A stretch of DNA of 39,153 bases. Origin: Lentisphaerota bacterium (GTDB taxonomy: Bacteria > Verrucomicrobiota > Lentisphaeria > Victivallales > Victivallaceae). Each line of letters begins with the position of its first letter. The stretch's first letter is position 1. The stretch is from contig SUVW01000024.1 in assembly GCA_015061815.1 (NCBI GenBank), positions 1 to 39,153 on the forward strand, in the 5' to 3' direction. Under the pieces are notes generated by a model, which was not told where the DNA came from, ran no database searches, and was given only the letters and a program-made list of their open reading frames with translations. Shown piece by piece: positions 1 to 24,120 of the stretch. A program made the position numbers and the translations under genes.

Positions 1-3000
1 TTAAGTCAAAGTATAACTATGCCGGAATTGGATGGCGGAACAACTCCTTTTGTACTGTCTGCTCTTTATCGGAATGAACGCGGTTTGCTGGAATTCAGAA
101 TGATTCCGGATCGTTTGGAAAGATTTGTTGAGCTGGTCAGGAAAACTGCTGACCTCAAGCGTAAAAACAATGCAGATAAAAAAATTGCTTTGATTTACTA
201 CGGTTCTATCGGAAAGGAATCTGCTACTGCGGGACTGGGTACTTCACAGTCAATTTTGAATATTCTCCGCCGTCTGCAAAAAGAAGGTTACAATACCGGT
301 GTTCTCCCGGAATCAGTGGAAGCTCTGGATAAAGAAATCAAAGAAAACAGTGCCGTTTTCGGTAAAATCGGCGGTACAAAACAGCTTACTCCCAAACATA
401 TTCAGACCGTTATCATTACGCCCGACGAGTATTCAAGCTGGGTAAAAAAGAGTATGCCCGATGATTTGTATTCCACTGTCGTTGAGCGTTACGGCGATTT
501 TCCAGGCAAAATGTTCCGGACAAAAGAAAACAATATGGCAATCGGCTGTATCCGTTTCGGGAATGTGATTTTAATGCCCCAATCGCTCCCCGGAGAAGGC
601 GCAGATGAAAATAAACTTATTCACGGGGTAAAAACATCTCCTCCGCACACTTATATTGCAACCTATCTCTATTTGCGGCATGGCTTCAAAGCTGATGCTT
701 TGATGCATGTCGGAACTCACGGCAGTCTGGAATTTACTCCGTGGAAACAGGTGGCTCTTTCAAGTTACGACTGGCCCGATGTACTTATCGGTGAAATGCC
801 GCATTATTATTTGTATATCATCAATAATATCGGTGAAGCACAAATCGCCAAACGCCGCAGTTATGCAACGATGATAAGTCATCTGACACCGCCGTTTATG
901 AATTCAGAAAGTTACGGTGCAATCGCTCAACTGCAGGAAAAACTGCACAACTTTGAGACTGCGGAAAATGCCAAGCTGAAAGCTGAATACGGTAAAGGCA
1001 TCATTGAACTTGTCAAAAAAGAAAATTTTCACAAAGATCTGAAACTTTCTGAAAAACTCCAGCAAGGTGTTCTTACCGGAGATGATTTGCTGAAAATCCA
1101 GGAATATCTGCACGAGATCAATGATGCAAAAGTAAATCGCGGCGTCTATATCATCGGGCGTCCGTACAGCGAAGCCGAAGCAAACGAAACCGCAATTTTA
1201 ATGAGTGTGGATGCCATCGCTGAATCCCTCTTTGAAGCGGATGTCAAAGCAGGAAAAGCGGATCCTGCCAAACGTCAGGATAAAATTTTCTTCCGTAACA
1301 ATTATTACTTGAAAGCGAAAGAATACGCAAAAGAAATACTGGCAAATCCGCAAAAAATCCAAAAAACACCTCCCCGCAGTCATCAGCCCCCCGCAAAAAT
1401 GTCAGAAGATGGAAACACCATGCGGAAAATGATACAGAGCGGCAAATTGCCGGACGGTCGTCCCATTCCTGCGGAAATGATGCAGGCAATGCAAATGATG
1501 CAAAGAAGCCCTGCCGCAGAACCAAAAGTACAAGTAAAACTTTCTCCCGAAGAAATTCTTTTGAAAGCACGCAAGGATATTACAGATTCCACAGATGCTG
1601 AACTTGATTCTATTATCAATGCGTTCTCCGGCGGATACATCGCCGCTTCTTCCGGAGGAGATCCCATTCTCAATCCCGCAACGGTTCCAACCGGTAAAAA
1701 TCTTTACGGCATCGATCCGGAACGGACTCCCACCCGCGAGAGTTACGAAGTCGGCAAACAGCTTGCACAGGAATTGATAGAGCAAAAACTCAAAACTACC
1801 GGCAAATATCCGCAAAAGGTCGCATTTTCGCTCTGGGGCGGGGAATTTATCCGTACACAGGGGGTAAATATCGGTGAGATATTTTATTTACTCGGAGTAG
1901 AGCCGGTCTGGGATTCCAGAGGCAGAGTTCAAGATGTAAGACTTATCCCGATAAGCGAACTCAAACGTCCCCGCATTGATGTGGTTATCCAGACTTCCGG
2001 ACAATTCCGCGGAGCTGCAGCAAGCAGAATGAAACTGATTGACAAGGCAGTTATGCTTGCCGCCGCCGACCCGGAAGGTGAATTCGGTAACTTTGTCCGG
2101 CAAGGCAGTCTGGAAATCACCAACGCTCTTATCGCTCAAGGTCTGCCGCCGCAGGATGCAAAGCAGTTGGGTAATGCCCGTATTTTCGGCGGAGTCAACG
2201 GTAATTTCGGCACAGGAGCAATGGGAGCGGCACAAGATACCGGCAAATGGGAAGATACCAAAGATATTGCGGAACTTTACCTGAACAATATGGGAGCAGT
2301 ATATACCGAAGGTCATTGGGGCGAACATAAACCGGAAATGTTCCGTGCCGCTGTAAAAAATACTGATTCCGTTGTCCAGTCCCGTTCAAGCAACAGCTGG
2401 GGACCGCTTTCATTGGATCATGTGTATGAATTTACCGGAGGAATAAGTCTTGCTGCCCGCCATGTCAACGGCAAAGACCCCGATGCATATTTCAATGACT
2501 TGCGCACCCCCGGCAGAGCCAAAGTTCAAGCTGCCGGTGAAGCCGCTATGGTAGAAGCCAGAAGTACGGTTTTAAATCCCAAATATATCAGGGAAATGAT
2601 GAAAGAAGGTGCGGCAACGACCGGACATTTTGCTGAAGTATTCCGGAACACGATGGGCTGGGAAATCATGAAACCGGATATGCTGGAAGATCATTTGTGG
2701 CAGGAGTACAAAGAAGTTTATGTGGATGACAAACTCAAACTCGGCACGCAAGATTTCTTTGAAAAAAACAACCCGTCAGCCTTGCACGAAATGACGGGAA
2801 TCATGCTGGAATCTGTCCGCAAAGGATTCTGGAAAGCAGATCAGAAAACCGTTGAGGATATAGCCAAAAATCACGTCGAACTTATGCGCAAATTCGATTT
2901 GCCGCCGGTGGATAATGCCAAACTTCAGGAGATGATCAAAAAATCCTTGAAAGATCCGGAACTGCGGAAAAGTTTTGATCAGCAGATCAAAAAATCTCTG

Positions 3001-3213
3001 GAGTTGAAAAATGCACATGCCGAAAAAATGCAGCAGACCGAAAAAGAGATCTCCGGGATGAAACTTAAAGAGGAGAAGCAGGAGGAAACATCCGGTGATA
3101 CCGCAACGGCTCTGAAAATTCTGGGAATAATAATTGCGGCGGCCTTCATTGCCATGATCGCAGGGAACATAAAGGGGCATTTCAAGAGGATATTGAAAAA
3201 TCAACGCCGGTAA
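1..3213 (+). CDS. CobN/HmuS-type chelatase large subunit, 5' end outside window
   Basis: The frame is open from base 1 (about six codons precede the first ATG at 19), so the gene begins upstream and about 1070 residues are visible. The text reads like the CobN/magnesium-chelatase H family: MPELDGG near the visible start, the metal/porphyrin-site block MHVGTHGSLEF, then WPDVLIGEMPHYYLY and AKRRSYATMISHLTPP. A Met-rich, low-complexity insert (MMQAMQMMQ) lies in the middle. The last about 35 residues form one hydrophobic segment followed by basic residues, so the protein is probably anchored in the inner membrane. Soluble aerobic CobN lacks such an anchor. The Bacteroides haem-uptake protein HmuS is a CobN-like protein of this layout, so haem or tetrapyrrole handling is as likely as cobalt insertion. 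The gene uses many AAA/GAA codons and looks more AT-rich than its neighbours, which could mean transfer. The partner genes are outside the window. Confidence 0.85.
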   Translation, partial: LSQSITMPELDGGTTPFVLSALYRNERGLLEFRMIPDRLERFVELVRKTADLKRKNNADKKIALIYYGSIGKESATAGLGTSQSILNILRRLQKEGYNTGVLPESVEALDKEIKENSAVFGKIGGTKQLTPKHIQTVIITPDEYSSWVKKSMPDDLYSTVVERYGDFPGKMFRTKENNMAIGCIRFGNVILMPQSLPGEGADENKLIHGVKTSPPHTYIATYLYLRHGFKADALMHVGTHGSLEFTPWKQVALSSYDWPDVLIGEMPHYYLYIINNIGEAQIAKRRSYATMISHLTPPFMNSESYGAIAQLQEKLHNFETAENAKLKAEYGKGIIELVKKENFHKDLKLSEKLQQGVLTGDDLLKIQEYLHEINDAKVNRGVYIIGRPYSEAEANETAILMSVDAIAESLFEADVKAGKADPAKRQDKIFFRNNYYLKAKEYAKEILANPQKIQKTPPRSHQPPAKMSEDGNTMRKMIQSGKLPDGRPIPAEMMQAMQMMQRSPAAEPKVQVKLSPEEILLKARKDITDSTDAELDSIINAFSGGYIAASSGGDPILNPATVPTGKNLYGIDPERTPTRESYEVGKQLAQELIEQKLKTTGKYPQKVAFSLWGGEFIRTQGVNIGEIFYLLGVEPVWDSRGRVQDVRLIPISELKRPRIDVVIQTSGQFRGAAASRMKLIDKAVMLAAADPEGEFGNFVRQGSLEITNALIAQGLPPQDAKQLGNARIFGGVNGNFGTGAMGAAQDTGKWEDTKDIAELYLNNMGAVYTEGHWGEHKPEMFRAAVKNTDSVVQSRSSNSWGPLSLDHVYEFTGGISLAARHVNGKDPDAYFNDLRTPGRAKVQAAGEAAMVEARSTVLNPKYIREMMKEGAATTGHFAEVFRNTMGWEIMKPDMLEDHLWQEYKEVYVDDKLKLGTQDFFEKNNPSALHEMTGIMLESVRKGFWKADQKTVEDIAKNHVELMRKFDLPPVDNAKLQEMIKKSLKDPELRKSFDQQIKKSLELKNAHAEKMQQTEKEISGMKLKEEKQEETSGDTATALKILGIIIAAAFIAMIAGNIKGHFKRILKNQRR

Positions 3214-3309
3214 AATTTCAACCGGACAATGCCGCCAACGGCGGAAAGACGGTAAAATCCACACGGCGCAGCAGAATCAGGCGGGAGGGGGATTTCAGGG
3301 AAAGTCCGC
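3214..3309. other. short junction between chelatase gene and phage cassette
   Basis: This is the convergent junction between the chelatase gene and the large-terminase gene. It holds a small GC-rich hairpin (CCGCC-aac-GGCGG near 3229-3241) without a T-run on either strand, so no clear terminator can be called. The stretch GCCGCC..CGGCGGAAAG..ACGGT weakly resembles the CACCGGCGGGAAAG..ACGGT segment of the dispersed repeats. I do not see an attachment-site duplication. Confidence 0.4.
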
Positions 3310-4563
3310 CTATGAGAGAATAAACCGCTGTCCGGTCACAATGCCGGTCAATCCGGTCACCGCCCATACCATCGCATCCATGCGATCCGGCGAACCATGA
3401 TAATTTCCCGGCTGATAAGTGCACATTTCCGCCTCAAGTTCCGGCAGATATCCCAGATGGTGGATGATCCCTTTTTCGTAAAATGCCGCCACCGGTTCAG
3501 CGCGGGAAAATTTATCTTTTACAGCTCTTACCGGCACGATCTTCACCGAATCATCCTCTCCGGCAAAGAGTGCGGCAAAGAGTTCCCCGCCGTTATTCAC
3601 CTCAATTGTAACGCAATCAGCCTGCAGCCGGTGGTACATTTCGATCACCTGCCGCACCCAGATCAGCGGTGAAGCACGCATACTCTTATCTTCAAGGATA
3701 TAGAAATCCCCATCCATCCCGCGCCCGGCGGCCACGATACCGGTCATATCGCACTCTTTGCCGGAATTCACCGCCGGATCGACAGCGATCACGGTTGCGG
3801 CCAATTCCGGGATCTCCGTCACCCGGGCGGAGTCGATCATGGAGCAGTTCCACAAAGTTCCGGCCAGATCATCGGCCCATTGTCCGGAAAGGAAACGTTT
3901 TCTCTGTCTTTCCGGCAGTCCGGCGAGAGTTTGTTCGATATATCCGGCCGGGAGATTTTTCCGGTTGGCTTCCGGATTTATTCTCATGGCGGCATAATTT
4001 TCCGGCATCGGCAGTTTTTTACGGGAAACCGGATCACACTTTTCCACAAACAGCCGGTAACTCCAGTGGGTTTTCCCCGGCGGATTGCAGTCATAATAAG
4101 CCCGGTTCAACAGCGGCGGAACATTCTGCGCCAGCCGGGTCAATGCCGTCTGGACACTGGAATAATCCAATTCGGAACACTCGTTGAAGTAGATCGTGGC
4201 AAACTCTTTGCCCAGGATCTTATCCGCCCGGTCGCCGTCATCCAGACCGATCAGCCATATTTCCGAATCATTGCCGAAACGGAAAAATCCCTCTGCCCGG
4301 TTGAAACGCCAGCGCAACCGGCTGCCGAAGCGGCTGCGCAAAACTTTGGGCATGGTATCTGAACCGATGGTGTTGCGGGCACTGACACAGTAACGGCGGA
4401 TCACCGCATGACGGCTGCCCGGTGCGCGCAACGCTCTGGCGGCCAGAGCGCAGCACAGGACAAAACTCTTCCCGGAACGCGAACCGCCGTAAAGCATACA
4501 GTGCTGCGCCGGACCGGAAAGCAGCCGCAATGCCTCCTTTTGTGTGGAAGTATAAGCAAACAT
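3310..4563 (-). CDS. terL: phage terminase large subunit (packaging ATPase/nuclease)
   Basis: This is the motor that pumps DNA into phage heads and cuts the concatemer. All parts are visible in its 417 residues. Walker A is GGSRSGKS at 26-33 and Walker B is ATIYFNE at 122-128, with Glu128 as the expected catalytic base. A coupling motif YYDCNPPG lies at 156-163. The C-terminal RNase H-like nuclease shows Asp262 (AVDPA), Glu321 (EVNNGGE) and Asp393/Asp396 (DRMDA). The length is normal to slightly short. It is the last gene of the minus-strand cassette, which is odd because TerL usually precedes the portal gene. An 18-bp gap separates it from the Zn/HTH gene upstream. All key residues are present, so it is not obviously decayed. 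Confidence 0.92.
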   Translation of the reverse strand: MFAYTSTQKEALRLLSGPAQHCMLYGGSRSGKSFVLCCALAARALRAPGSRHAVIRRYCVSARNTIGSDTMPKVLRSRFGSRLRWRFNRAEGFFRFGNDSEIWLIGLDDGDRADKILGKEFATIYFNECSELDYSSVQTALTRLAQNVPPLLNRAYYDCNPPGKTHWSYRLFVEKCDPVSRKKLPMPENYAAMRINPEANRKNLPAGYIEQTLAGLPERQRKRFLSGQWADDLAGTLWNCSMIDSARVTEIPELAATVIAVDPAVNSGKECDMTGIVAAGRGMDGDFYILEDKSMRASPLIWVRQVIEMYHRLQADCVTIEVNNGGELFAALFAGEDDSVKIVPVRAVKDKFSRAEPVAAFYEKGIIHHLGYLPELEAEMCTYQPGNYHGSPDRMDAMVWAVTGLTGIVTGQRFILS

Positions 4564-4581
4564 GAGTGCTTCCGGAAATTT

Positions 4582-5079
4582 TCAGCAATGTCCGCAGCTT
4601 TTATGCCGGAGAAACATCCTCCGCCCGGAAGAAAGTTTGGGCATAAGCAGTTGAAAAAGTCCGGATAATTCCGGATGTTTGCTGATTATGCGCAGCATTT
4701 TGCGGTGCATCGCCTGCCGGGAACAATTATGCATTTGGCTGAATTGCCTTACTGTTTGAGCCCTCTGACCGTCAACCGGAGAGACCATCTGGGTGACGAT
4801 ACCCAAAGTATAATCATCCAACTCCAGCAGATAGCGGAAAAATTTTCCGATCCGGTCAATGATCATATCCTGCACATTCAGTTCTTCCATGCCGGGGATG
4901 TGTTCATAATCCGGAGTATCCGGAATAATATCCGCCGCAGCTTCAAAACTGACCACATGAGTGCGGCTGTTGATGCTTTTGGCAGTAGCCTGCCAGTAGC
5001 GGCATGAGTCAAAAAATTCACATTTGGCGCAAGGTGTTTCGCCGTTGGGATACTTCCCGTAACATTTCGGACAATCCAT
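4582..5079 (-). CDS. phage-cassette protein with Cys cluster and helix-turn-helix
   Basis: This 165-residue protein has no family I can name. The N-terminus carries Cys3, Cys6, Cys17, Cys20 and Cys26 (CPKC..CAKCEFFDSC), which looks like a small zinc-binding knuckle. Residues about 110-145 (TVRQFSQMHNCSRQAMHRKMLRII) have the spacing of a helix-turn-helix of the sigma/resolvase kind. The tail ends in a basic stretch with two more Cys. DNA binding is therefore likely. Its place directly before terL makes it a candidate DNA-recognition (small terminase) subunit, competing with the protein at 8586-8828. A transcription factor for the cassette is the alternative. The start has the Shine-Dalgarno AGGAG just upstream. 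Confidence 0.7.
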   Translation of the reverse strand: MDCPKCYGKYPNGETPCAKCEFFDSCRYWQATAKSINSRTHVVSFEAAADIIPDTPDYEHIPGMEELNVQDMIIDRIGKFFRYLLELDDYTLGIVTQMVSPVDGQRAQTVRQFSQMHNCSRQAMHRKMLRIISKHPELSGLFQLLMPKLSSGRRMFLRHKSCGHC

Positions 5080-5094
5080 AATTTCTCCTTTTCT

Positions 5095-5466
5095 TCAACC
5101 GCGTACGATCTTAACTGCGGTATTTCCGGTAAAATTTTCCACTATTGCAGCCGCCCGCTGCCCGAGCAGAGGCGCACCATCCGGGCCGAATTTCCGGCTT
5201 TCGCTTCCGGATGACACGGCGGATATTCCGGTATTGCTTCCGGTGATGACTTCCGGGTTGAGGAGCAAAAACAGAGTCTGTTCGGCAACTGCCGCCAGAA
5301 ACATCTCATCTTCGCTGCTGTTCCGGGGGCGGACAGGATAGATGGCGGTCAGGATATCCCGTTCTGCCAGCCGGATGCAGCAGCAGCGTTCTTTTTCGGA
5401 AAAAGAGGTGAATTTTTCCTGCAGCGGATGATTTTCCAGATATTTTTCGATTTCAGAATATTGCAT
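5095..5466 (-). CDS. probable head-tail adaptor / neck protein
   Basis: This 123-residue protein starts at the ATG preceded by GAGGA seven bases upstream; a longer reading to 5523 lacks a good ribosome site. The N-terminal half is helical (YSEIEKYLENHPLQEKFTSFSEKERCCCIRLAERDILTAIYP), followed by a second helical stretch (EDEMFLAAVAEQTLFLLLNPE). This resembles the gp6-like/DnaT-like connector proteins that sit under the portal ring. The evidence is general shape plus position directly after the capsid gene, not a decisive motif. It would close the filled head and offer a docking face for a tail. No tail gene is present in this window. Confidence 0.55.
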   Translation of the reverse strand: MQYSEIEKYLENHPLQEKFTSFSEKERCCCIRLAERDILTAIYPVRPRNSSEDEMFLAAVAEQTLFLLLNPEVITGSNTGISAVSSGSESRKFGPDGAPLLGQRAAAIVENFTGNTAVKIVRG

Positions 5467-5557
5467 ATTTTCCTCAATGGACAAGTGATACATCTTTGCC
5501 GCACCGCACCGGGGTGAAAGCATATCCCCGGCACGGTACGGAAAAGCGGTTCAAAAA

Positions 5558-6715
5558 TTATGCGCCGCGCAAAGCGGTGATGGCTTCACTGCTGCTCATC
5601 AGATTTCTGATCCGGCAGCAACGCTGTTTGACATTTTTGAATTCAAAGGTCAATTCACCGATCGCCACCCGGCGGATGCCGTCGAAACCTCTGGGGGTGG
5701 CATCCATATCAGTTATCGCCCGGCCGGAAAGACTGGCCAGCGCGAAGCAACCGGTATCCAGTACCCAGGCATCGGTATCCGGCATATCCGGATCGGCCAT
5801 AATGGTCATGCCCCGGCCGTTGATCTCATTGACGATCACAGCGACATACGCGCCGCGCCGGTCATCGGAACGCAATATCTGGATACGGTCACGGTACTCA
5901 TTGGAAATAACCCGGGCCTGACCGGGGGAACAGAGTATCTGCATGGGATCTCCACCCTCACCGAGGATCATCTGGGCGGCATCGTTGATGATGAAACTGT
6001 CCAGTTTCACTGCATCGGCATCAATGACCGGTACGCCGGGTTGAGTACCGAAAAAGTAGAGGCCGCCGGCTTCGCCTCTGGTATTGGCTGAAGCTTCCAC
6101 ACGTCTGCCGAAAAGAGCCACGCGGTTGAGGTCACGGGCAAGGTCAGCGAGCGCGAAGGCGGTCTGACGGTTGAGCTGGTTGTCGGCATTTCCGGCCAGA
6201 CTGACCGCCAGAGAAGTACCGGAAAGCACGATCTCTTTACGGAAGATCTGGGTGGCATTCCACTGCACATCTGCAAGATGGTAGTTTTCTTCACCGTCAC
6301 CATTGGAAGTTCCTTCGCCCATCGGAGTGGAAACGATGATGAATTTACCGCCGCCGGAGGGCAGAGAGGCAAGTTCGGAATATTCCGAACCATTGACCGC
6401 TGCGATCTCGATTCTGGCAGAAGAGGCGGTCACATCCGCCACGCGGAAGAGCGCGGGATTATCCTTGATGGCGATCAGAGTGCCGGTTTTGAGTTTGGCG
6501 GCATCTCCGGCGGAAAGGGTCAGGACACCGTCGGCAATGGCGGTGGCGGTAACGCCGCGTCCGGTGAGCTGATCTTCCATGAACTCATGTTTGGCGGAAA
6601 GCGCATCCGGAGCCATGCGGAAGTTGGAAATGAAGCGCGGTTCATCTTTGATAACAGTTGACATAACATCAGAGAGGTCGCGTTTGCGGTTGGCAAAAGA
6701 GTAATTGTAAAGCAT
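5558..6715 (-). CDS. major capsid protein, SU10/DUF5309-like
   Basis: This 385-residue protein reads as an HK97-fold major capsid protein of the SU10 (DUF5309) kind. The diagnostic stretch is NATQIFRKEIVLSGTSLAV (about 150-170), followed by a long helix with LADLARDLNRVALFGRRVE and then a conserved TRGEAGGLYFF block. The C-terminal part has DNA-free beta-rich text typical of the axial domain (RGMTIMADPDMP, FDGIRRVAIGELTFEFK). A beta-rich insertion at about 55-120 could be a surface domain. The gene lies just after the scaffold gene in the transcript, the usual order scaffold-capsid. The start ATG has GGAAA upstream. No separate maturation protease is seen. Confidence 0.85.
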   Translation of the reverse strand: MLYNYSFANRKRDLSDVMSTVIKDEPRFISNFRMAPDALSAKHEFMEDQLTGRGVTATAIADGVLTLSAGDAAKLKTGTLIAIKDNPALFRVADVTASSARIEIAAVNGSEYSELASLPSGGGKFIIVSTPMGEGTSNGDGEENYHLADVQWNATQIFRKEIVLSGTSLAVSLAGNADNQLNRQTAFALADLARDLNRVALFGRRVEASANTRGEAGGLYFFGTQPGVPVIDADAVKLDSFIINDAAQMILGEGGDPMQILCSPGQARVISNEYRDRIQILRSDDRRGAYVAVIVNEINGRGMTIMADPDMPDTDAWVLDTGCFALASLSGRAITDMDATPRGFDGIRRVAIGELTFEFKNVKQRCCRIRNLMSSSEAITALRGA

Positions 6716-6749
6716 AAAAATTTTCCTTTCAGTTGATTATCAGATTATA

Positions 6750-7181
6750 TTATCGGCCGACAGCCTCGGGAGCATCGCTTATACTTCTGGCGATGGCTCC
6801 GATGCGGTCTCCGTAAAAGCCCTCATCCTGACCGGCGGATGGGGGAGAAATGACAGAGCTTCCGGCACTGCTGCCGGGGGTGATCCTGGCATTGAAACAT
6901 CCCGGTGAATGCGCGGACAACTCCCGGGCAAATCCGCGCAATGCCTCCGGGTCACCGGTATCGATCCCCTGCCGGCCGGCACAGAACTCCAGATATGCCG
7001 GATCGGTACAACCGGTTTCAATGCTGATCTTTTCCAAAATGCTCTGTTTTTGCAGCCGGAGATACTTTTCCTGCAAACAGCTGTAATCTTTTTCCAATTC
7101 AGCCAGTCTGACAGCCGGATCATCCGGATTTTCCGGTACAGCGGGGGGAACTTCCATATTTTCGGGAAGCGGTTCACTCAT
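6750..7181 (-). CDS. probable capsid scaffolding protein
   Basis: This 143-residue, mostly acidic protein has a Pro-rich N-terminus (PENPDDPAVRL), a coiled-coil helix (LAELEKDYSCLQEKYLRLQKQSILEKI) and a low-complexity Ser/Pro/Gly C-terminal half. That composition, together with the position between portal and capsid genes, is what phage scaffolds show. Scaffolds hold the procapsid in shape and then leave. Its start overlaps the end of the portal gene by 8 bases, so the two are translationally coupled. No catalytic motif is visible. The call rests on context and coiled coil, not on sequence family. Confidence 0.65.
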   Translation of the reverse strand: MSEPLPENMEVPPAVPENPDDPAVRLAELEKDYSCLQEKYLRLQKQSILEKISIETGCTDPAYLEFCAGRQGIDTGDPEALRGFARELSAHSPGCFNARITPGSSAGSSVISPPSAGQDEGFYGDRIGAIARSISDAPEAVGR

Positions 7182-8559
7182 TTTTCATCTCCTGATCGAT
7201 CTCTTTGATAATAGTTTCTTTTTCTCCGGCTCCGACATGGCCGATGGCATCGAGCAATTCGACGGCGGTTTTACCGACAGCGCGGCGGTAGGCATTTCCG
7301 GCGGGAATGGCAGACAACTGCAGCAGTCCGGCGATACCTCCGGCCAGATCATTGACTGCGAAACGCCGGTTGTAATGAATTTCCGGTACTGTCAGATCCA
7401 GGTCATACCGCCGCATAAGTTTCCAGGCTTCCAATTCGGTCTGCTCCAGCAGATCAGCTCTGGCGGCGAGGAATTGGTTGACATTCTGGAAATCCCAGGC
7501 TTTGCTTTCGGCACTCTGATTTTCCCGCAGATTCCCCTGTACGGCCAGACCGACGACATCGTACAACTCCTGTTTGAGATAGCGGTTCTCCGCCCGGATG
7601 GTATCCGTTGCCACGCCGGATGGACTGATATAACGGCTGATACCTTTTTCTTCAATGGATTCCACGATGGCGGCACTGCGGGCGACGGTAGCGGAAAAGG
7701 TATCTCCGATGCCGTCATGGCCGATCTGCTTTCTGGCACTGCGGGCAAAAGAATCAGAAACCACAAGCATACCGAACATCTGCTTGACCGTATTCATCTG
7801 GGCCTCGGATTCGTTATTGAGTATCGCTTCACTTATCCTGACGACATCTTCGAACCAGTGGTTTGCCGCCAGACCGAAACCGTCAGGTTCAGTTACCGGG
7901 ATCAGCGGAACGCATCCGGTTGGATTGATCCCGGAAGCGACCTCGATAGTTTCTGAAGCATTATTTTCAAAGAGCCGCCAGCAGTTGCGGTCATACAATC
8001 TCCGGCGTTTGACCCGCACCGGGGGAGAGAACGGATCATCGCAGCAGTACAACTCCTCTGCCACCAGGGCCCAGAGCAGTTTGCCGTCTTCGCCGTATGC
8101 CCAATCGACCACCTGCAGCGGTGACAAAGCCCGTGCGTACGGGCGCAGCCGTGCTTCTCTGGCCTGCTGCCGGGTTGGGGTTCCGGTAAAAAGCGGCATT
8201 TCCACCAGCAGCCATGCCCGTCCGTAGACATTGAGCAGCGTGGATAATTGGCGCATGACCTCATTGGTGCGCAAGCCATTGCGGCTCCAATCCTCGACAA
8301 GTTCCGGATCGGCATTGCGGCGGATGGGATCGACGCTCAAGGCATATTGGGTTATCCGGCGTGCGATTGCCCGGGGATAGTTGAAGTAATAAGCACGGCG
8401 GCGGCGTTCGGCGAATTCCAGATCGATCTCGGAAACATGCCGGATCAGGGCCTGTTCGATATATTCCCGGCCGCCGGAATAAGCATCCGATGACCGCCGC
8501 CACCGGCGTTCATTGGTGCTGTATTGAATATTTTTGCGCTGAAAAATATAATTGTTCAA
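7174..8559 (-). CDS. phage portal protein (DUF4055-like)
   Basis: The portal forms the 12-subunit ring through which DNA enters the head. The protein (about 461 residues) shows the portal features: an Arg-rich N-terminal region, LRPYARALSPLQVVDWAYGEDGKL (the strand-rich wing), VPLIPVTEP, a long helix with NNESEAQMNTVKQMF, and the late helical section RAENRYLKQELYDVVGLAV..ENQSAESKAWDFQ typical of the clip/crown. I place the start at the TTG at 8559, about 10 bases after GAGGAAAG. A TTG at 8589 that overlaps the previous stop codon is possible and would add 10 residues. The gene comes early in the cassette, followed by the scaffold gene with an 8-base overlap. Confidence 0.82.
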   Translation of the reverse strand: MNNYIFQRKNIQYSTNERRWRRSSDAYSGGREYIEQALIRHVSEIDLEFAERRRRAYYFNYPRAIARRITQYALSVDPIRRNADPELVEDWSRNGLRTNEVMRQLSTLLNVYGRAWLLVEMPLFTGTPTRQQAREARLRPYARALSPLQVVDWAYGEDGKLLWALVAEELYCCDDPFSPPVRVKRRRLYDRNCWRLFENNASETIEVASGINPTGCVPLIPVTEPDGFGLAANHWFEDVVRISEAILNNESEAQMNTVKQMFGMLVVSDSFARSARKQIGHDGIGDTFSATVARSAAIVESIEEKGISRYISPSGVATDTIRAENRYLKQELYDVVGLAVQGNLRENQSAESKAWDFQNVNQFLAARADLLEQTELEAWKLMRRYDLDLTVPEIHYNRRFAVNDLAGGIAGLLQLSAIPAGNAYRRAVGKTAVELLDAIGHVGAGEKETIIKEIDQEMKNE

Positions 8560-8585
8560 AATCGTCTTTCCTCTACTTGAAATTG

Positions 8586-8828
8586 TCAAAGGCTGTTTTC
8601 TTCACCGGAAAGCATCTTTTCCGGATCTTCCTCTTTCTCCCGGGCGTGAGATTTTTTCCATCTTTCCGGACAGCGGTTTTCCAACCAGTACATCGCCGCC
8701 CGGACATCGGGCGGAACCAGTTTGCCTGAAGCATCCTCATACCCGGTGGCCCGGCGGAACAGGGCATTTTCCACAGATTTCAACAGTTCATCAAAATTCT
8801 CCTTCTGTTTGTTTTCTTCTCTGTCCAT
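8586..8828 (-). CDS. small-terminase-like phage protein
   Basis: This 80-residue protein contains LVPPDVRAAMYWLENRCPERWKKS (about 37-60), which matches the PD..AA.FWL.NR.P..W motif seen at the end of many phage small-terminase or packaging-associated proteins. The N-terminal half is a charged helix (ENFDELLKSVENALFRRATGYED). The start ATG is four bases after GGAGA. It overlaps the preceding small ORF by 49 bases in another frame and ends at the beginning of the portal gene. If it is the DNA-recognition subunit, the cassette has TerS first and TerL last. It is shorter than a typical TerS and has no clear separate DNA-binding domain. Confidence 0.6.
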   Translation of the reverse strand: MDREENKQKENFDELLKSVENALFRRATGYEDASGKLVPPDVRAAMYWLENRCPERWKKSHAREKEEDPEKMLSGEENSL

Positions 8829-8989
8829 ACATTCTCCTTTTTCCGGCTGGTTGACCTCCTGCTACCTTGCCGCACATTGTCAACACAGCAATTGCACAAA
8901 GCTGCGGCCAGCTGCCGCAATCCCTGCAGAGAACAGACCTTTCCTGACGGAGAAATCACCGGATCGGCGATACGAATTGAAATATCCAT
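8780..8989 (-). CDS. small first ORF of the phage cassette, unknown function
   Basis: This 69-residue reading frame is the first after the cassette promoter. The start ATG at 8989 is preceded by GGAGG seven bases upstream, an excellent ribosome site and the main support. Residues 1-36 look structured (DISIRIADPVISPSGKVCSLQGLRQLAAALCNCC with a Cys pair). The C-terminal third, which overlaps the next gene, is basic and low in complexity (SRRSTSRKKE). I do not recognise the family. The overlap of 49 bases with the following gene is long, so a reading error or internal frameshift near the end cannot be excluded. Confidence 0.5.
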   Translation of the reverse strand: MDISIRIADPVISPSGKVCSLQGLRQLAAALCNCCVDNVRQGSRRSTSRKKENVWTEKKTNRRRILMNC

Positions 8990-9022
8990 TACTTTTCCTC
9001 CTGAATCAATGGATCTTATTTT

Positions 9023-9040
9023 GATTGCACGCGTGCAATC
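9023..9040. promoter_or_regulatory. operator palindrome O1
   Basis: GATTGCACGCGTGCAATC is a perfect 18-bp palindrome. It shares the arms TTGCA/TGCAA with two sites further right. It lies about 50 bases downstream of the minus-strand -10 box, inside the 5' leader of the cassette transcript, where a bound repressor could act as a roadblock or bind cooperatively with O2. Confidence 0.75.
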
Positions 9041-9088
9041 GGCGGACACAAAAAATTTCCGGAAAACCCTTTTCCCCGGCAGAAACTC

Positions 9089-9117
9089 AATATAATTGCA
9101 TGCATGCAATTTTTCAA
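9089..9117 (-). promoter_or_regulatory. cassette promoter with operator O2 in its spacer
   Basis: On the minus strand TTGAAA (9112-9117) and TATATT (9089-9094) are separated by exactly 17 bases. The perfect palindrome AATTGCATGCATGCAATT (9094-9111) fills the spacer, so a repressor bound there would block RNA polymerase directly. The predicted transcript starts near 9082 and runs into the phage genes. Confidence 0.8.
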
Positions 9118-9148
9118 GCGCAAAAAATAACTTTTTTTAAAAAAAATT

Positions 9149-9178
9149 GCTTGCATGCATGTAATCACGATGTATATT
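9149..9178 (+). promoter_or_regulatory. predicted repressor promoter overlapped by operator O3
   Basis: GCTTGCATGCATGTAATC (9149-9166) matches the palindromes O1/O2 with two changes from perfect symmetry. It covers a possible plus-strand -35 TTGCAT (9151-9156), 16 bases before TATATT (9173-9178). This would be the autoregulated promoter of the repressor at 9666, with about 480 bases of leader that contain a dispersed repeat. Centre-to-centre distances O1-O2 and O2-O3 are 71 and 55 bp. Confidence 0.6.
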
Positions 9179-9223
9179 ATGTATTGTAAATATGGTTGGC
9201 TCATTGCGAAGCGAAGCCGGGAT

Positions 9224-9650
9224 GGAGATTTTTGGAGAAGTCCGCAATGCGCCACCGACGGAAAAATTGGGAACGGTCAATATCTACCGGCTTGTCCCCG
9301 ACGGTAAAAAAGAAACGGTCAAATTCTACCGGTGGATGCAACGTGAGATAAGGTCGAAGTCAAAACAAAGTAACGGTGAAGAAGTGCAGTAAACCTGCTC
9401 GACTGAACCGGTATCTGCAGTTTTGACAAGAGATTATCCACGCGGCGACACCGACGGGAAAGAAAACGGAAACGGTCAGATCCAACCGGTGGATGCAGTG
9501 CGAGGTAATGTCGACGTCAAATCAAGGCGGATGAGCAGGAGTGTACAAAACGTACTCGACTGCGAATACGTCCGATGATTTGACAAGAGATTACCCGCAA
9601 TGCGCCACCGACGGTATGATGGCATCACAACAAATGAGACAATAACAATA
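9224..9650 (+). repeat. dispersed structured repeat, copy A (tandem units)
   Basis: This copy contains three occurrences of a GCG(C/A)CACCGACGG block (9249-9261, 9445-9457, 9602-9614) that bound two tandem units. Each unit carries distant complementary arms: GTCAAAAC 9359-9366 with GTTTTGAC 9420-9427, and GTCAAATC 9516-9523 with GATTTGAC 9577-9584. The last about 46 bases (to GACAATAAC) match copy D with one difference. No convincing protein is encoded; short open frames here are by-products of the repeat. It occupies the gap between the predicted repressor promoter and the repressor gene. Confidence 0.85.
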
Positions 9651-9665
9651 AATTAAGGTAAAAAA

Positions 9666-10568
9666 ATGCGTTTGAATGAAACCATACTTCACGCCCTGCG
9701 CCAGGCAGTTCTTCACTCCGGCGGAGCCAAAGAGCTGGCCGCGAAGTGCCATATCAGTGCTTCCAACATCTCCCGTTACCTCAACGGCAAAGTTTCTTCG
9801 ATCACCGATGAGTGCTGGGAACGTCTTCAACCGTTTCTGGAACTTCCTTCTCTTCCGCACACCAGCGGCACAGTCGCCAACACTCCGGAATTGCGCGCTT
9901 TCCTGACTGCCGCCATGCACAAATCCGGGATCAGCACTATCGAACAGCTCCGGCGTGCCATCGGTTATAATTCCGGCGACTCACTGCGCCGTATTTTTGA
10001 TGGGGAATTGAATTGGTTTCCGGATGTATTATCGGCGGTATTGGATGCTCTCAACTGCAATCCCGATCTGCTTCCGGTCACTCCGGCAGAAAAACTGCTG
10101 TTGTCACCACGCGGTTTGTACCGCGATGGGGCCATGCTTGTCCGGCCGGTGCCGATCGTGGAGTGGGCCAATGCCGCCAGTTCTCTGGAATCTCTGGAAT
10201 CAGACACGGTTCTTATGGGTCGATGGGACCCGGAAACCACTCCGACGGTGCCGGTACCGGCCGATTCCCGGCGGGACACCAAAGCTTTCCGGGTACACGG
10301 CATATCTATGGAACCGCGCATTCTTGATGATGATATCGTTCTGGTCGAACCGGCGGAAAACTGCAATCTGATACCGGATAATAAAATCGTGGTTGCACGT
10401 TTTACCGATCAGAGTACTATTCCGGAAAAGGTGGTATGCAAACGCTTCCGCAAACAGAACAGTCAATTTCTGCTGACCAGTGACAATCCGGAAGGACGGA
10501 TCATCCCGTTTTCCCCGGAAGATATCGCCTGGATCGGAATCGTGGTCAAAAAGATTTCAGAAATGTGA
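9666..10568 (+). CDS. LexA/CI-type repressor (HTH plus S24 autoprotease)
   Basis: This 300-residue protein joins an N-terminal helix-turn-helix (AKELAAKCHISASNISRYLNGK, 21-42), a second HTH-like helical section (about 87-115) and a C-terminal peptidase S24 domain. The catalytic pair is visible: Ser214 in HGISMEP and Lys259 in VVCKRF. The expected cleavage bond lies in VEWANAAS, where Ala170-Ala171 takes the place of the usual Ala-Gly. By family, such proteins hold a prophage silent and cut themselves when RecA filaments signal DNA damage. It very likely binds the three palindromes at 9023-9166 and controls the head genes on the opposite strand. Its start has AAGG upstream. It ends one base before the convergent nfo stop codon, with no terminator between. 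Confidence 0.85.
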   Translation: MRLNETILHALRQAVLHSGGAKELAAKCHISASNISRYLNGKVSSITDECWERLQPFLELPSLPHTSGTVANTPELRAFLTAAMHKSGISTIEQLRRAIGYNSGDSLRRIFDGELNWFPDVLSAVLDALNCNPDLLPVTPAEKLLLSPRGLYRDGAMLVRPVPIVEWANAASSLESLESDTVLMGRWDPETTPTVPVPADSRRDTKAFRVHGISMEPRILDDDIVLVEPAENCNLIPDNKIVVARFTDQSTIPEKVVCKRFRKQNSQFLLTSDNPEGRIIPFSPEDIAWIGIVVKKISEM

Positions 10569-10569
10569 A

Positions 10570-11415
10570 TCACCTGCCGGCACGTTCCAGACAATAGGAT
10601 ATTTCCTGCTGCCAGCGCGATTCATCCGGAGTTTCCAATATCAGCGGGATATTGTCAAAACGCGGATCGGCGGCGATCCTGGAAAATGTTTCCAGGCCGA
10701 TACTTCCGTCACCAAGCGGTGCGTGCCGGTCAAGATGTCCGGCAAGAACACCTTTGGAATCATTCAGATGCATTGCCCGCAAGTTTTTCAAACCGATAAG
10801 GCGGTCGAATTGCGCGAAGCAATCTTCGAATCCTTCTGCAGAAGACAGGTCATATCCGGCGGCAAAGGCGTGACAGGTATCGATACACACACCGGTGCGC
10901 CCGGGCATGCCGACGGCTTCCAGCATCATTGCCAGCTGTTCGAATGAATATCCCAGATTGCTTCCCTGCCCGGCGGTATTTTCAAATACCGCACAAACAT
11001 CGGGAATTTCCTGCAGAGCAGTTTTCACCGATTCGGCAATGATCCGGCATCCTTCAGTTTCAGAAACCAGTTTCAAATGACTGCCGGGATGGAAATTGAG
11101 CATCGTCAAGCCCAATTGACGGCAGCGGTTCAGTTCATCGATGAATGCGCGCAATGCCGCTGCCCGCTTGACCTTGTCCGGCTGCCCGAGATTGATCAGA
11201 TAACTGTCATGCGGCAGTATCGCGGCGGCGGAATAGCCGTATTTCCGGCAATTTTCCCGGAATGCGGCAATTGAAGCTTCCGGAATCGGCGGTGCGCTCC
11301 ACTGCCGCTGATTTTTAGTAAAAAGAGCAAAGGCTGTCGCGCCGAATGAAGCGGCATTGACCGGAGCATTTTCCACTCCTCCGGCAATGGAAACATGTGG
11401 TCCGATAAATTTCAT
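10570..11415 (-). CDS. nfo: endonuclease IV (AP endonuclease)
   Basis: Nfo cuts DNA 5' of abasic sites in base excision repair with three zinc ions in a TIM barrel. Its 281 residues match the normal length. Metal-ligand motifs are in order: HVSIAGG near the start, NFHPGSH, FENTAGQG, CIDTCHAFAAGYD, HLNDSKG..DRHAPLGDG and LETP. The start codon overlaps the nrnA stop (ATGA), so it is the last gene of the nusA operon and is translationally coupled. DNA repair in a nusA-infB operon is unusual, though nrnA and nfo both act on nucleic-acid damage or turnover. Confidence 0.95.
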   Translation of the reverse strand: MKFIGPHVSIAGGVENAPVNAASFGATAFALFTKNQRQWSAPPIPEASIAAFRENCRKYGYSAAAILPHDSYLINLGQPDKVKRAAALRAFIDELNRCRQLGLTMLNFHPGSHLKLVSETEGCRIIAESVKTALQEIPDVCAVFENTAGQGSNLGYSFEQLAMMLEAVGMPGRTGVCIDTCHAFAAGYDLSSAEGFEDCFAQFDRLIGLKNLRAMHLNDSKGVLAGHLDRHAPLGDGSIGLETFSRIAADPRFDNIPLILETPDESRWQQEISYCLERAGR

Positions 11416-23355: not shown

Positions 23356-24120
23356 TCATAACATAAATCTCTGTTCCCTGCCATCCTCATCCCGGAGAAC
23401 AACACCGTTTCCGTCAAGCCTGAATCTTTCCAGTTCGAATTCCCACCCGGTCAACTGCGCTTTTACGATCACTCCATCCTTGAATTCCAACACCGCTGCC
23501 GCCGCATAATCATTGCTGAAACATCCCGGCAAATCAATGAATGCGATGGCGTAATCCCTGGAATCCCGGGTGAAAGTATAGTGAGGATATATTATTATTT
23601 CCAGCGTAACTTCTTCACCGTAAGCGACCTGATTAAATTCACCCTTGCCGTTGAGCAAATGCAAAGTCACTCCGTTGATCTCTCCGTCAGCAGATTTGAT
23701 CCGCTTCCAGCGTGCGGCATCATCAACGTTAAGTCCCATTACTTCGATCATCCGTTCCATCAATGCCGCGATTTCCAAAGCACGCGACATTCCTTCAATA
23801 GAACCGGTATCCTTCCATGACCGGTCACGGATTTTCTGTATATCCCGGCAAAGAAATCCGTAGTCACGGAGCAATTCGCACCGTTCCCGCTGATCAGATA
23901 ACGAAGCAAGTTTTTTATCAAGAGTGATCAGCAGTTTATCTTCCACCGCCTCCTGATAATCCCCGGCCGCAGCATTCATTTCCATCTGCGTCCGGGCATC
24001 GCTTAAAACTTTTTTTGCCGCATCTATCCGGCGGTCGGGGGATCCCTCCGCCCGGACAGTCGCCGGTAAAAGCGAAAATATCATGATGAGGAACAAAACT
24101 GTTCTGCCGGCAAACATCAT
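23356..24120 (-). CDS. secreted or periplasmic protein of unknown function
   Basis: The 254-residue product has a clear signal peptide (about 1-24, hydrophobic TVLFLIMIFSLLPATVRA, cut after AxA). Residues 30-125 are helical and rich in charges, with two cysteines (ERCELLRDYGFLC). The second half is beta-rich (EVTLEIIIYPHYTFTRDSRDYAIAFIDLPGCF). A faint resemblance of the helical part to LprI/DUF1311 lysozyme inhibitors (cysteine positions, W in a helix followed by GS) is too weak to name it. It starts 21 bases after the SGNH hydrolase gene, so the two probably share a transcript. The repeat B edge meets its stop codon. Confidence 0.75.
   Translation of the reverse strand: MMFAGRTVLFLIMIFSLLPATVRAEGSPDRRIDAAKKVLSDARTQMEMNAAAGDYQEAVEDKLLITLDKKLASLSDQRERCELLRDYGFLCRDIQKIRDRSWKDTGSIEGMSRALEIAALMERMIEVMGLNVDDAARWKRIKSADGEINGVTLHLLNGKGEFNQVAYGEEVTLEIIIYPHYTFTRDSRDYAIAFIDLPGCFSNDYAAAAVLEFKDGVIVKAQLTGWEFELERFRLDGNGVVLRDEDGREQRFML

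Follow-up and report, generated by a model that had tools for sequence, protein, structure and literature searches.

Capsid-forming PICIs are defined by an integrase and attachment sites, by horizontal mobility and by patchy presence, and RcGTA, the gene transfer agent (GTA) of Rhodobacter capsulatus, is encoded by a large gene cluster that includes a full set of tail genes and is under host regulators. The closest analogue of the locus described here is FpGTA of Faecalibacterium prausnitzii, which forms heads of ~40 nm with no identifiable tail, carries host DNA and has a TerS (small terminase) without a DNA-binding domain (PMC12946183). Microscopy, proteomics and the host DNA in its particles back FpGTA, which also has a second operon with baseplate, fibre and lysis genes; no such genes were found for our locus, a cassette in a Lentisphaeria genome. 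Compared by description, the cassette also differs from FpGTA in belonging to another phylum, in retaining a CI-like repressor with paired palindromes, and in carrying the large terminase (TerL) gene last. RcGTA, compared in the same way, resembles the cassette in its vertical descent, in its phage-derived head and terminase genes, and in gp1, a TerS without an N-terminal helix-turn-helix (HTH) (PMC6854486, PMC9662315).

We analyzed a stretch of 39,153 nucleotides (the window; contig SUVW01000024.1 of assembly GCA_015061815.1) from a Lentisphaerota bacterium of the family Victivallaceae. Its minus strand holds, at positions 3310-8989 and beside the CI-like repressor, a small first gene followed by genes for TerS, portal, a scaffold-like protein, the SU10-type capsid protein (MCP), a connector-like protein, a Zn/HTH-like protein and TerL (Table 1). 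We consider it probable that this block is the head and packaging core of a domesticated siphophage of this bacterial family, kept as a GTA-like system. All head and packaging genes named in an earlier note on this DNA were found, uninterrupted and in the order it gave, with TerL at the end as it had claimed; strand and spacing suggest that they form one transcript. As for its claim of intact key residues, those within the TerL stretches that we take to be the Walker A, Walker B and nuclease motifs reach 90% consensus across 25 aligned TerLs (25 of 31 sequences, shorter ones being excluded). We revised the likely starts of the portal and connector-like genes and added the small first gene, which tblastn matched in 12 of 25 loci, its own included (E up to 0.024). 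The scaffold-like, connector-like and Zn/HTH genes matched no Pfam or PHROG model (for the Zn/HTH-like protein, nothing below E 0.09), and we assigned their putative roles from position and from homologues present in phage regions of the same family: connector-like homologues come after MCP whether in a cassette, a dispersed unit or a phage region (alignment, n=29), and in related phage contigs a Zn/HTH-like homologue lies upstream of TerS.

Table 1. Features of the cassette and its control region, in window coordinates.
Feature	Position	Strand	Evidence
TerL, last gene	3310..4563	-	PF17289 6.6e-15, PF03237 6e-14, phrog_979 2e-55
Zn/HTH-like protein	4582..5079	-	homologue in 23/23 loci and in L031, L257
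Head-tail connector-like protein (142-aa ORF, likely start 5466)	5095..5466	-	putative role, from position only
MCP, SU10 type	5558..6715	-	PF17236 SU10_MCP 5.1e-43; tree in step with infB
Scaffold-like protein	6750..7181	-	between portal and MCP; homologue at equivalent place in phage regions
Portal (ORF opens 8589; likely start TTG 8559)	7174..8559	-	phrog_145 1.5e-42
TerS without N-terminal helix-turn-helix	8586..8828	-	phrog_309 9e-12
Small conserved first gene	8783..8989	-	tblastn matches
Palindrome TTGCACGCGTGCAA, operator candidate	9025..9038	.	palindrome scan
Palindrome TTGCATGCATGCAA, spaced 71 bp from the TTGCACGCGTGCAA site, operator candidate	9096..9109	.	palindrome scan
Third site, imperfect palindrome	9151..9164	.	
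Divergent CI-like repressor (HTH and S24 peptidase)	9666..10568	+	PF00717 1.9e-16, phrog_4 2e-21

A search of relatives with MCP and portal and a comparison of neighbourhoods, as the earlier note had recommended, returned the same block in most of the genus. MCP was found in 29 of 33 same-genus relatives and in the window's own genome, in one locus per genome except in G021, and portal in 30 of the 34 genus genomes. The four genomes without portal are those without MCP, and are 71-87% complete. Thirty genus genomes have MCP, and the whole block was read in 23 of them; the seven main genes are present in a single order in all 23 loci, an arrangement that persists down to ~67% infB identity (in G010 and G026 the order is the usual one by coordinates, over-long ORFs disturbing the printed order). 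MCP is clearly broken in one of these, G006.

We compared cassette trees with that of infB in 27 genomes having MCP, portal and more than 1500 bases of infB. Between the MCP tree and that of infB, 14 of 24 splits agree, and none of the 14 strong MCP splits conflicts; the portal tree shares 13 of 24, with three of 18 strong splits in conflict (G007 and G022/G024). A joined tree of the two shares 14 of 24 splits, while label shuffles reach at most 2. Some exchange or decay does occur, as indicated by the portal conflicts, by MCP identities out of line in G033 and G007, and by the broken MCP. Across ten pairs, dN/dS was 0.07-0.21 for MCP, 0.04-0.15 for portal, 0.04-0.22 for TerL and 0.02-0.08 for infB, and it was at most 0.41 for every cassette gene (nine pairs for the repressor; six for the connector-like gene, one of them saturated). 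Descent of the cassette is thus mostly vertical and under purifying selection. Among the outcomes that, according to the earlier note, would refute its reading were homologues confined to complete prophages with relaxed selection on this copy, and this is not what we found. If the block were instead a small phage-like element that is still mobile and enters the same species time and again, one would expect what is seen in the flanking genes, which vary between subclades, and in the few tree conflicts. However, flanks are common to the members within several subclades, there is one locus per genome nearly throughout, the synonymous divergence of cassette genes resembles that of infB, and IMG/VR scans for close relatives returned just two contigs, each carrying phage genes absent from the cassette. 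We regard such an element as quite improbable.

The region ahead of the block is conserved as well. In 19 of 23 loci a repressor homologue adjoins the block, three of these homologues being shorter (188-211 aa). At least one palindrome is present in 20 of 23 loci, and paired sites 63-72 bp apart lie ahead of the head genes in 12. The palindrome pattern also occurs at four further places in the window's own genome, and other loci are not convincingly marked by it. Together with the 30 of 34 genomes, the trees close to infB and the purifying selection, these operator-like sites lend support to the domesticated DNA-packaging head module that the earlier note had proposed.

The same head family occurs in siphophage-type regions, namely G037:C10, G039:C90, G054:C40 and the IMG/VR contigs L031 and L257. 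All five have portal and scaffold families in common with the cassette, and MCP and connector families too as far as they were read. In contrast to the cassette, these contigs, as read, add genes for a MuF-like minor head protein, neck, terminator and tube; a tape measure was seen in L031 and L243. The TerLs of L031 and L257 gave no match to the window TerL. Our family-wide trees comprise 51 MCPs and 40 portals, with MCPs of up to 300 residues and portals of up to 350 left out, and in them the portal of G037 and the cassette portals of the genus are sisters (UFBoot 100). This grouping with a prophage-like region, the broken MCP of G006 and a locus without tail, lysis or replication genes are what an old defective prophage in slow decay would leave behind. 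Such decay is at odds with the retention of all seven genes, at low dN/dS, in each of the 23 loci, and with palindromes kept in most of them. We therefore rejected a decayed prophage on grounds of selection and conservation, in line with the earlier note, which had thought it less likely, and hold it to be very improbable.

TerS divides the genus. Its N-terminal HTH is missing from 10 of the 23 loci, each of which belongs to the window's clade, and retained in 13 (alignment, n=27); it is also retained in the four related phage regions read. The window TerS covers only positions 196-259 of phrog_309, and HTH-bearing relatives align from positions 132-163 onward. Since 13 loci retain the HTH, non-specific packaging would be the trait of one clade. 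We set the locus against properties expected of a GTA: (i) origin from a tailed phage is supported by the Pfam and PHROG matches and the siphophage-type relatives; (ii) vertical transmission within a cellular genome, by the distribution and the MCP and portal trees; (iii) maintenance by purifying selection, by dN/dS; and (iv) a TerS without a sequence-specific DNA-binding domain is found in the window clade only. In the scanned part of the window, no element unites tail, lysis, replication and integration genes, as a complete prophage would.

Head genes, a terminase and a repressor in a locus without tails would also suit a capsid-forming, PICI-like satellite that packages itself and uses helper tails, an option offered by the earlier note. 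Nine neighbouring host-side proteins scanned up to position 24120 (three ORFs in that stretch and all ORFs past it lying outside the scan) belong to no phage family, one of them having no match at all, and none is an integrase or replication gene. A repeat scan of positions 2700-11000 found no attachment-like repeat flanking the block. Against a satellite stand these absences in the stretches scanned, presence that is neither patchy nor mobile (30 of 34 genomes, mostly vertical descent), and a window-clade TerS without an HTH for self-recognition. The satellite reading is largely refuted, and we rejected it as extremely improbable.

The description of the block as tail-less in the earlier note holds at the locus and fails for the genome, where contig C12 carries a solitary tail-tube-like gene (E 9.6e-42 with A4, a profile made from three genus genomes). 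Its family aligns with phage tubes (E 4e-10). The gene had no match in PHROG, a profile search of the family against PDB gave one unrelated match only (E 1.4), and a broader tube profile, A1, had no match in the window's own genome. It evolves fast (dN/dS 0.13-0.56 in seven of eight pairs, the remaining pair being saturated), and the palindrome pattern is absent from the 20-kb stretch around it. It is the particle-type gene found beyond the cassette in this genome: the neck profile A5 and the terminator profile A6 had no match there or in the ten closest genomes searched, and the PF10145 tape measure had none in the genome itself. Other genus members retain neck- and terminator-like genes in additional separate loci. 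With these and the tube-like gene, the earlier view of the block as self-contained is weakened.

A genome without tape measure, neck- or terminator-like matches, and a block with its own control region, could also mean that the head module was domesticated for another purpose, making tail-less shells, DNA-filled or empty, or serving as an anti-phage module, with no gene transfer. However, the TerL motor and nuclease stretches are retained, and DNA packaging therefore seems to be under selection; a solitary tube-like gene is retained in the same clade; and FpGTA carries host DNA although it has no identifiable tail (PMC12946183). We consider this alternative unlikely.

We favour a GTA-like system that would have arisen and would work as follows. 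A siphophage of the same head family, resembling the fuller prophage-like region G037:C10, would have been captured by an ancestor of the genus. On the chromosome, the genes for capsid, portal, scaffold, connector and terminase would have stayed in one block, with some tail and neck genes kept or moved elsewhere. The CI-like repressor, bound to the paired candidate operators, would silence the block, and its release would lead to head assembly and filling by TerL. In the window clade, packaging may take host DNA without preference, because TerS there has lost its DNA-binding domain and would no longer direct the motor to phage DNA. Heads may then gain a tail, short or minimal, to which genes such as the C12 tube-like gene would contribute, and transfer their contents to other cells.

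Other genera of the family have dispersed head and neck units, as seen in the cultured strain zth2 (G043) and, probably, in Victivallis vadensis (G057, which coordinates match to L238). One of the MCP genes of V. vadensis DSM 14823 is interrupted. The window's genus is not known to have a cultured member. Like the cassette, they mostly comprise one portal per genome and lie among host genes; no complete phage surrounds them in the 20-kb stretches read. Unlike the cassette, they are split into a scaffold-MCP-connector unit and a portal-neck unit, separated by 11 kb in zth2 and by 1.29 Mb in G051, and their portals fall outside the clade of the window's genus. Grown on laminarin or starch, zth2 releases hexagonal and icosahedral particles (PMC11361711), and these could partly be GTA-like particles.

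Long-term inheritance of the head genes in the manner of host genes, in this gut bacterium and most others of its genus, suggests a so-far undescribed GTA-like particle in this phylum. In the open-licence papers searched, and among the listed results of broader searches of them, we found none on a GTA or a domesticated prophage in Lentisphaerota, or on a GTA or a prophage capsid in Victivallis and its relatives. More tentatively, and at a little short of even chances, we propose an undescribed Lentisphaerota GTA lineage in which the steps from phage to GTA are readable in living relatives, with the same phage family domesticated at least twice in one bacterial family and the zth2 particles perhaps belonging in part to it. 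The series would run from siphophage-type prophages through a cassette with phage-type TerS to a cassette with stripped TerS under a phage-type repressor and paired operators; the other domestication would have led to the dispersed head and neck units, which are seen in at least nine genera. If true, such a lineage would extend GTAs to a further phylum, with Lentisphaeria living in herbivore guts as its carriers, and would add a route of gene flow in that habitat. It would also provide, within one genus, the states before and after the change in TerS that is thought to render packaging non-specific, so that the question could be tested directly by comparing the two natural forms of TerS.

The block lies among host genes: on one side it is flanked by a CobN/Mg-chelatase, and on the other by an AP-endonuclease-like TIM barrel protein, a DHH protein, IF-2 (infB) and NusA. 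None of the nine neighbouring proteins scanned, up to position 24120 (three ORFs of that stretch left out), matched phage families. We note a repeat element at 9242-9614, between the repressor and the operator-like sites, with copies ~157 bp apart here and at least 60 matches in the window's own genome.

Genes of the head block and its repressor in the window
Feature	Position	Strand	Part of
Small first gene	8783-8989	-	block
TerS	8586-8828	-	block
Portal	7174-8559	-	block
Scaffold-like gene	6750-7181	-	block
SU10-type major capsid gene	5558-6715	-	block
Connector-like gene	5095-5466	-	block
Zn/HTH-like gene	4582-5079	-	block
TerL	3310-4563	-	block
CI-like repressor	9666-10568	opposite orientation to head genes	

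All seven main genes were present in each of the 23 same-genus loci read, and always in the order TerS-portal-scaffold-MCP-connector-Zn/HTH-TerL (23/23). The sole clearly broken gene among these loci was the MCP (major capsid protein) gene of genome G006, while TerS, scaffold and connector varied in length. The repressor was present in 19 of the 23 loci; those of G011, G013 and G027 are shorter, at 188-211 aa. Subclades differ from one another in their flanking genes, but within some of them the flanks are shared (for example loci L046/L047/L062; L049/L051; L050/L054; and L032/L036/L038, together with L037 in reversed orientation). In the closest genome, G004, the infB side matches that of the window but the CobN side does not.

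The palindrome TTGCANNNNTGCAA was found in 20 of the 23 loci, and by coordinates it lies between the repressor and the head genes in 19; in G007 it lies upstream of TerS, with no repressor match. The three loci without palindromes also had no repressor match. Palindromes were paired 63-72 bp apart in 12 of the 23 loci, and the window has a pair 71 apart and an additional third, imperfect site. The pattern occurs at six places in the own genome, two of them at the block, and the reversed control pattern had 0 occurrences there. We infer that the repressor binds these palindromes.

Identity of block proteins to those of the window was correlated with infB identity (Spearman 0.96 for portal, n=26; 0.84 for MCP, n=26; 0.88 for repressor, n=16; and 0.70 for TerL, n=25, where some matches were shortened by contig ends). 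Trees were compared with a corrected infB tree of 27 genomes. The MCP tree had 14 of 24 splits in common with it and no strong-split conflicts (0/14); the portal tree had 13/24 in common, and 3/18 of its strong splits conflicted (around G007, G022 and G024); the joined MCP+portal tree had 14/24 in common and 2/18 in conflict, and label shuffles of the joined tree gave a mean of 0.2 common splits (maximum 2). dN/dS ratios (NG86; ten pairs per gene unless stated), which are rough because many dS values are high, were 0.07-0.21 for MCP, 0.04-0.15 for portal, 0.04-0.22 for TerL, 0.05-0.31 for TerS, 0.12-0.37 for scaffold, 0.16-0.40 for Zn/HTH, 0.07-0.37 for repressor (nine pairs) and 0.10-0.34 for connector (five of six pairs, one being saturated), and 0.02-0.08 for the host gene infB. 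In the closest pair, dS of MCP (0.68) was close to that of infB (0.67).

The own genome (2.50 Mb, 44 contigs, 94% complete) and 29 of 33 further genomes of the genus carry MCP relatives, as do 20/26 genomes from other genera of the family and 5/40 from the remaining order as sampled. Portal was found in 30/34 genomes of the genus (15/15 in a first set and 15/19 in a second). Both genes were missing from G005, G019, G023 and G030, which are 71-87% complete. Relatives found by protein searches are assigned to Lentisphaeria or Lentisphaerae (several come from the colon of sheep and yak, one from horse faeces) and to Victivallaceae/Victivallales and Victivallis from other sources. IMG/VR yielded two contigs only, in scans able to detect close relatives only, and in a phage-record collection identity was below 30% among the best 8 of 38 portal records and the best 8 of 13 MCP records. 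Genome G021 holds a second, divergent MCP (L063, contig C46) in addition to the genus cassette, with a TerL ~5 kb off on the other strand.

An N-terminal extension of TerS with a helix-turn-helix (HTH) is present in four phage or prophage relatives and 13/23 cassettes, and missing from all ten cassettes read of the window's clade. A single branch of the infB tree divides these ten from the 13 others, and a portal tree with phage outgroups places them nested, so one loss of the TerS HTH suffices. The phrog_309 match is restricted to 196-259 in the window TerS and 197-260 in that of G004; in six HTH-bearing relatives it begins at 132-163. Pfam HTH models gave weak matches, all below cut-offs, to the N-termini of 5/7 long TerS tested, and none to the short form. 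RcGTA TerS is reported to have no N-terminal HTH domain and to bind DNA weakly (PMC6854486), and FpGTA TerS to be without any obvious DNA-binding domain of that kind (PMC12946183).

In siphophage-type relatives of the head family, the connector is followed by genes for a MuF-like protein, neck, terminator and tube, and for a tape measure where read. The own genome has a solitary tube-like gene at C12:17631-18065 (E 9.6e-42), detected with profile A4, built from three same-genus genomes. This profile matched 18 of 26 same-genus genomes, 11 at E <1e-30, three of the 11 being its own members. In four genomes the tube-like gene has one and the same neighbour, a gene that is transporter-like as judged by eye. 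In a profile comparison the family of the C12 gene aligned with phage tubes (P 96.7, E 4e-10); the own-genome protein had no PHROG match and went undetected by a broader tube profile. Neck-like genes occurred in 11/26 genomes and terminator-like genes in 13/28 (seed genomes and other genera counted), and both were absent from the own genome and the ten closest relatives searched. The tape-measure family PF10145 scored above cut-off in 2/34 genus genomes and 5/14 control genomes, with nothing above cut-off in the own genome. The tail of the block's system may therefore be minimal, divergent or partly lost. G007, of the window's genus, carries neck-like, tube-like and two terminator-like genes as a single separate unit (L162, 6526-8246). 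In strain zth2, tube-like and terminator-like parts share one open frame, a solitary fused protein encoded at two genome places (L083, ~739 kb; L090, ~1276 kb).

The closest known system is FpGTA of Faecalibacterium, which has the same kind of head operon, a second locus and experimental support (PMC12946183). The present system is termed GTA-like and is not classed as a GTA, a name that would call for packaged DNA and transfer. Strain zth2 carries the dispersed set, the split head and neck units of other genera. The zth2 report describes hexagonal and icosahedral particles released on laminarin or starch, many phage-associated genes up 4- to 200-fold with laminarin, and phage contigs of 6.3 kb and 40.4 kb assembled outside the chromosome (PMC11361711). 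Some of these particles may derive from the chromosomal set.

In these other genera, the portal has a neck gene beside it, and MCP is grouped with scaffold and connector elsewhere; the two groups are separated by 11 kb in zth2, by 9 kb in G037 and by 1.29 Mb in G051, and lie on different contigs in the other dispersed sets read. Nine genera besides the window's, all of the same family, had scaffold-MCP-connector units. In V. vadensis DSM 14823 (L238, 74-2424), an MCP gene is reduced to its 3' part, which adjoins the connector gene and is abutted by a large-serine-recombinase-like gene (by eye), an arrangement that looks like insertion of a mobile element into the capsid gene. In G039, a dispersed-set portal broken by a stop is followed by neck and TerL genes (L246, contig C58, 11561-13729), and the same genome also holds a prophage-like region that is fuller (L245).

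The tree of 40 portals unites the genus block and a prophage-like region of G037 in one clade (UFBoot 100) and sets the dispersed set apart from the genus block; in the MCP tree, support at this point is 49-50, too low to tell the two apart. It is therefore likely that this head family was domesticated twice, independently.
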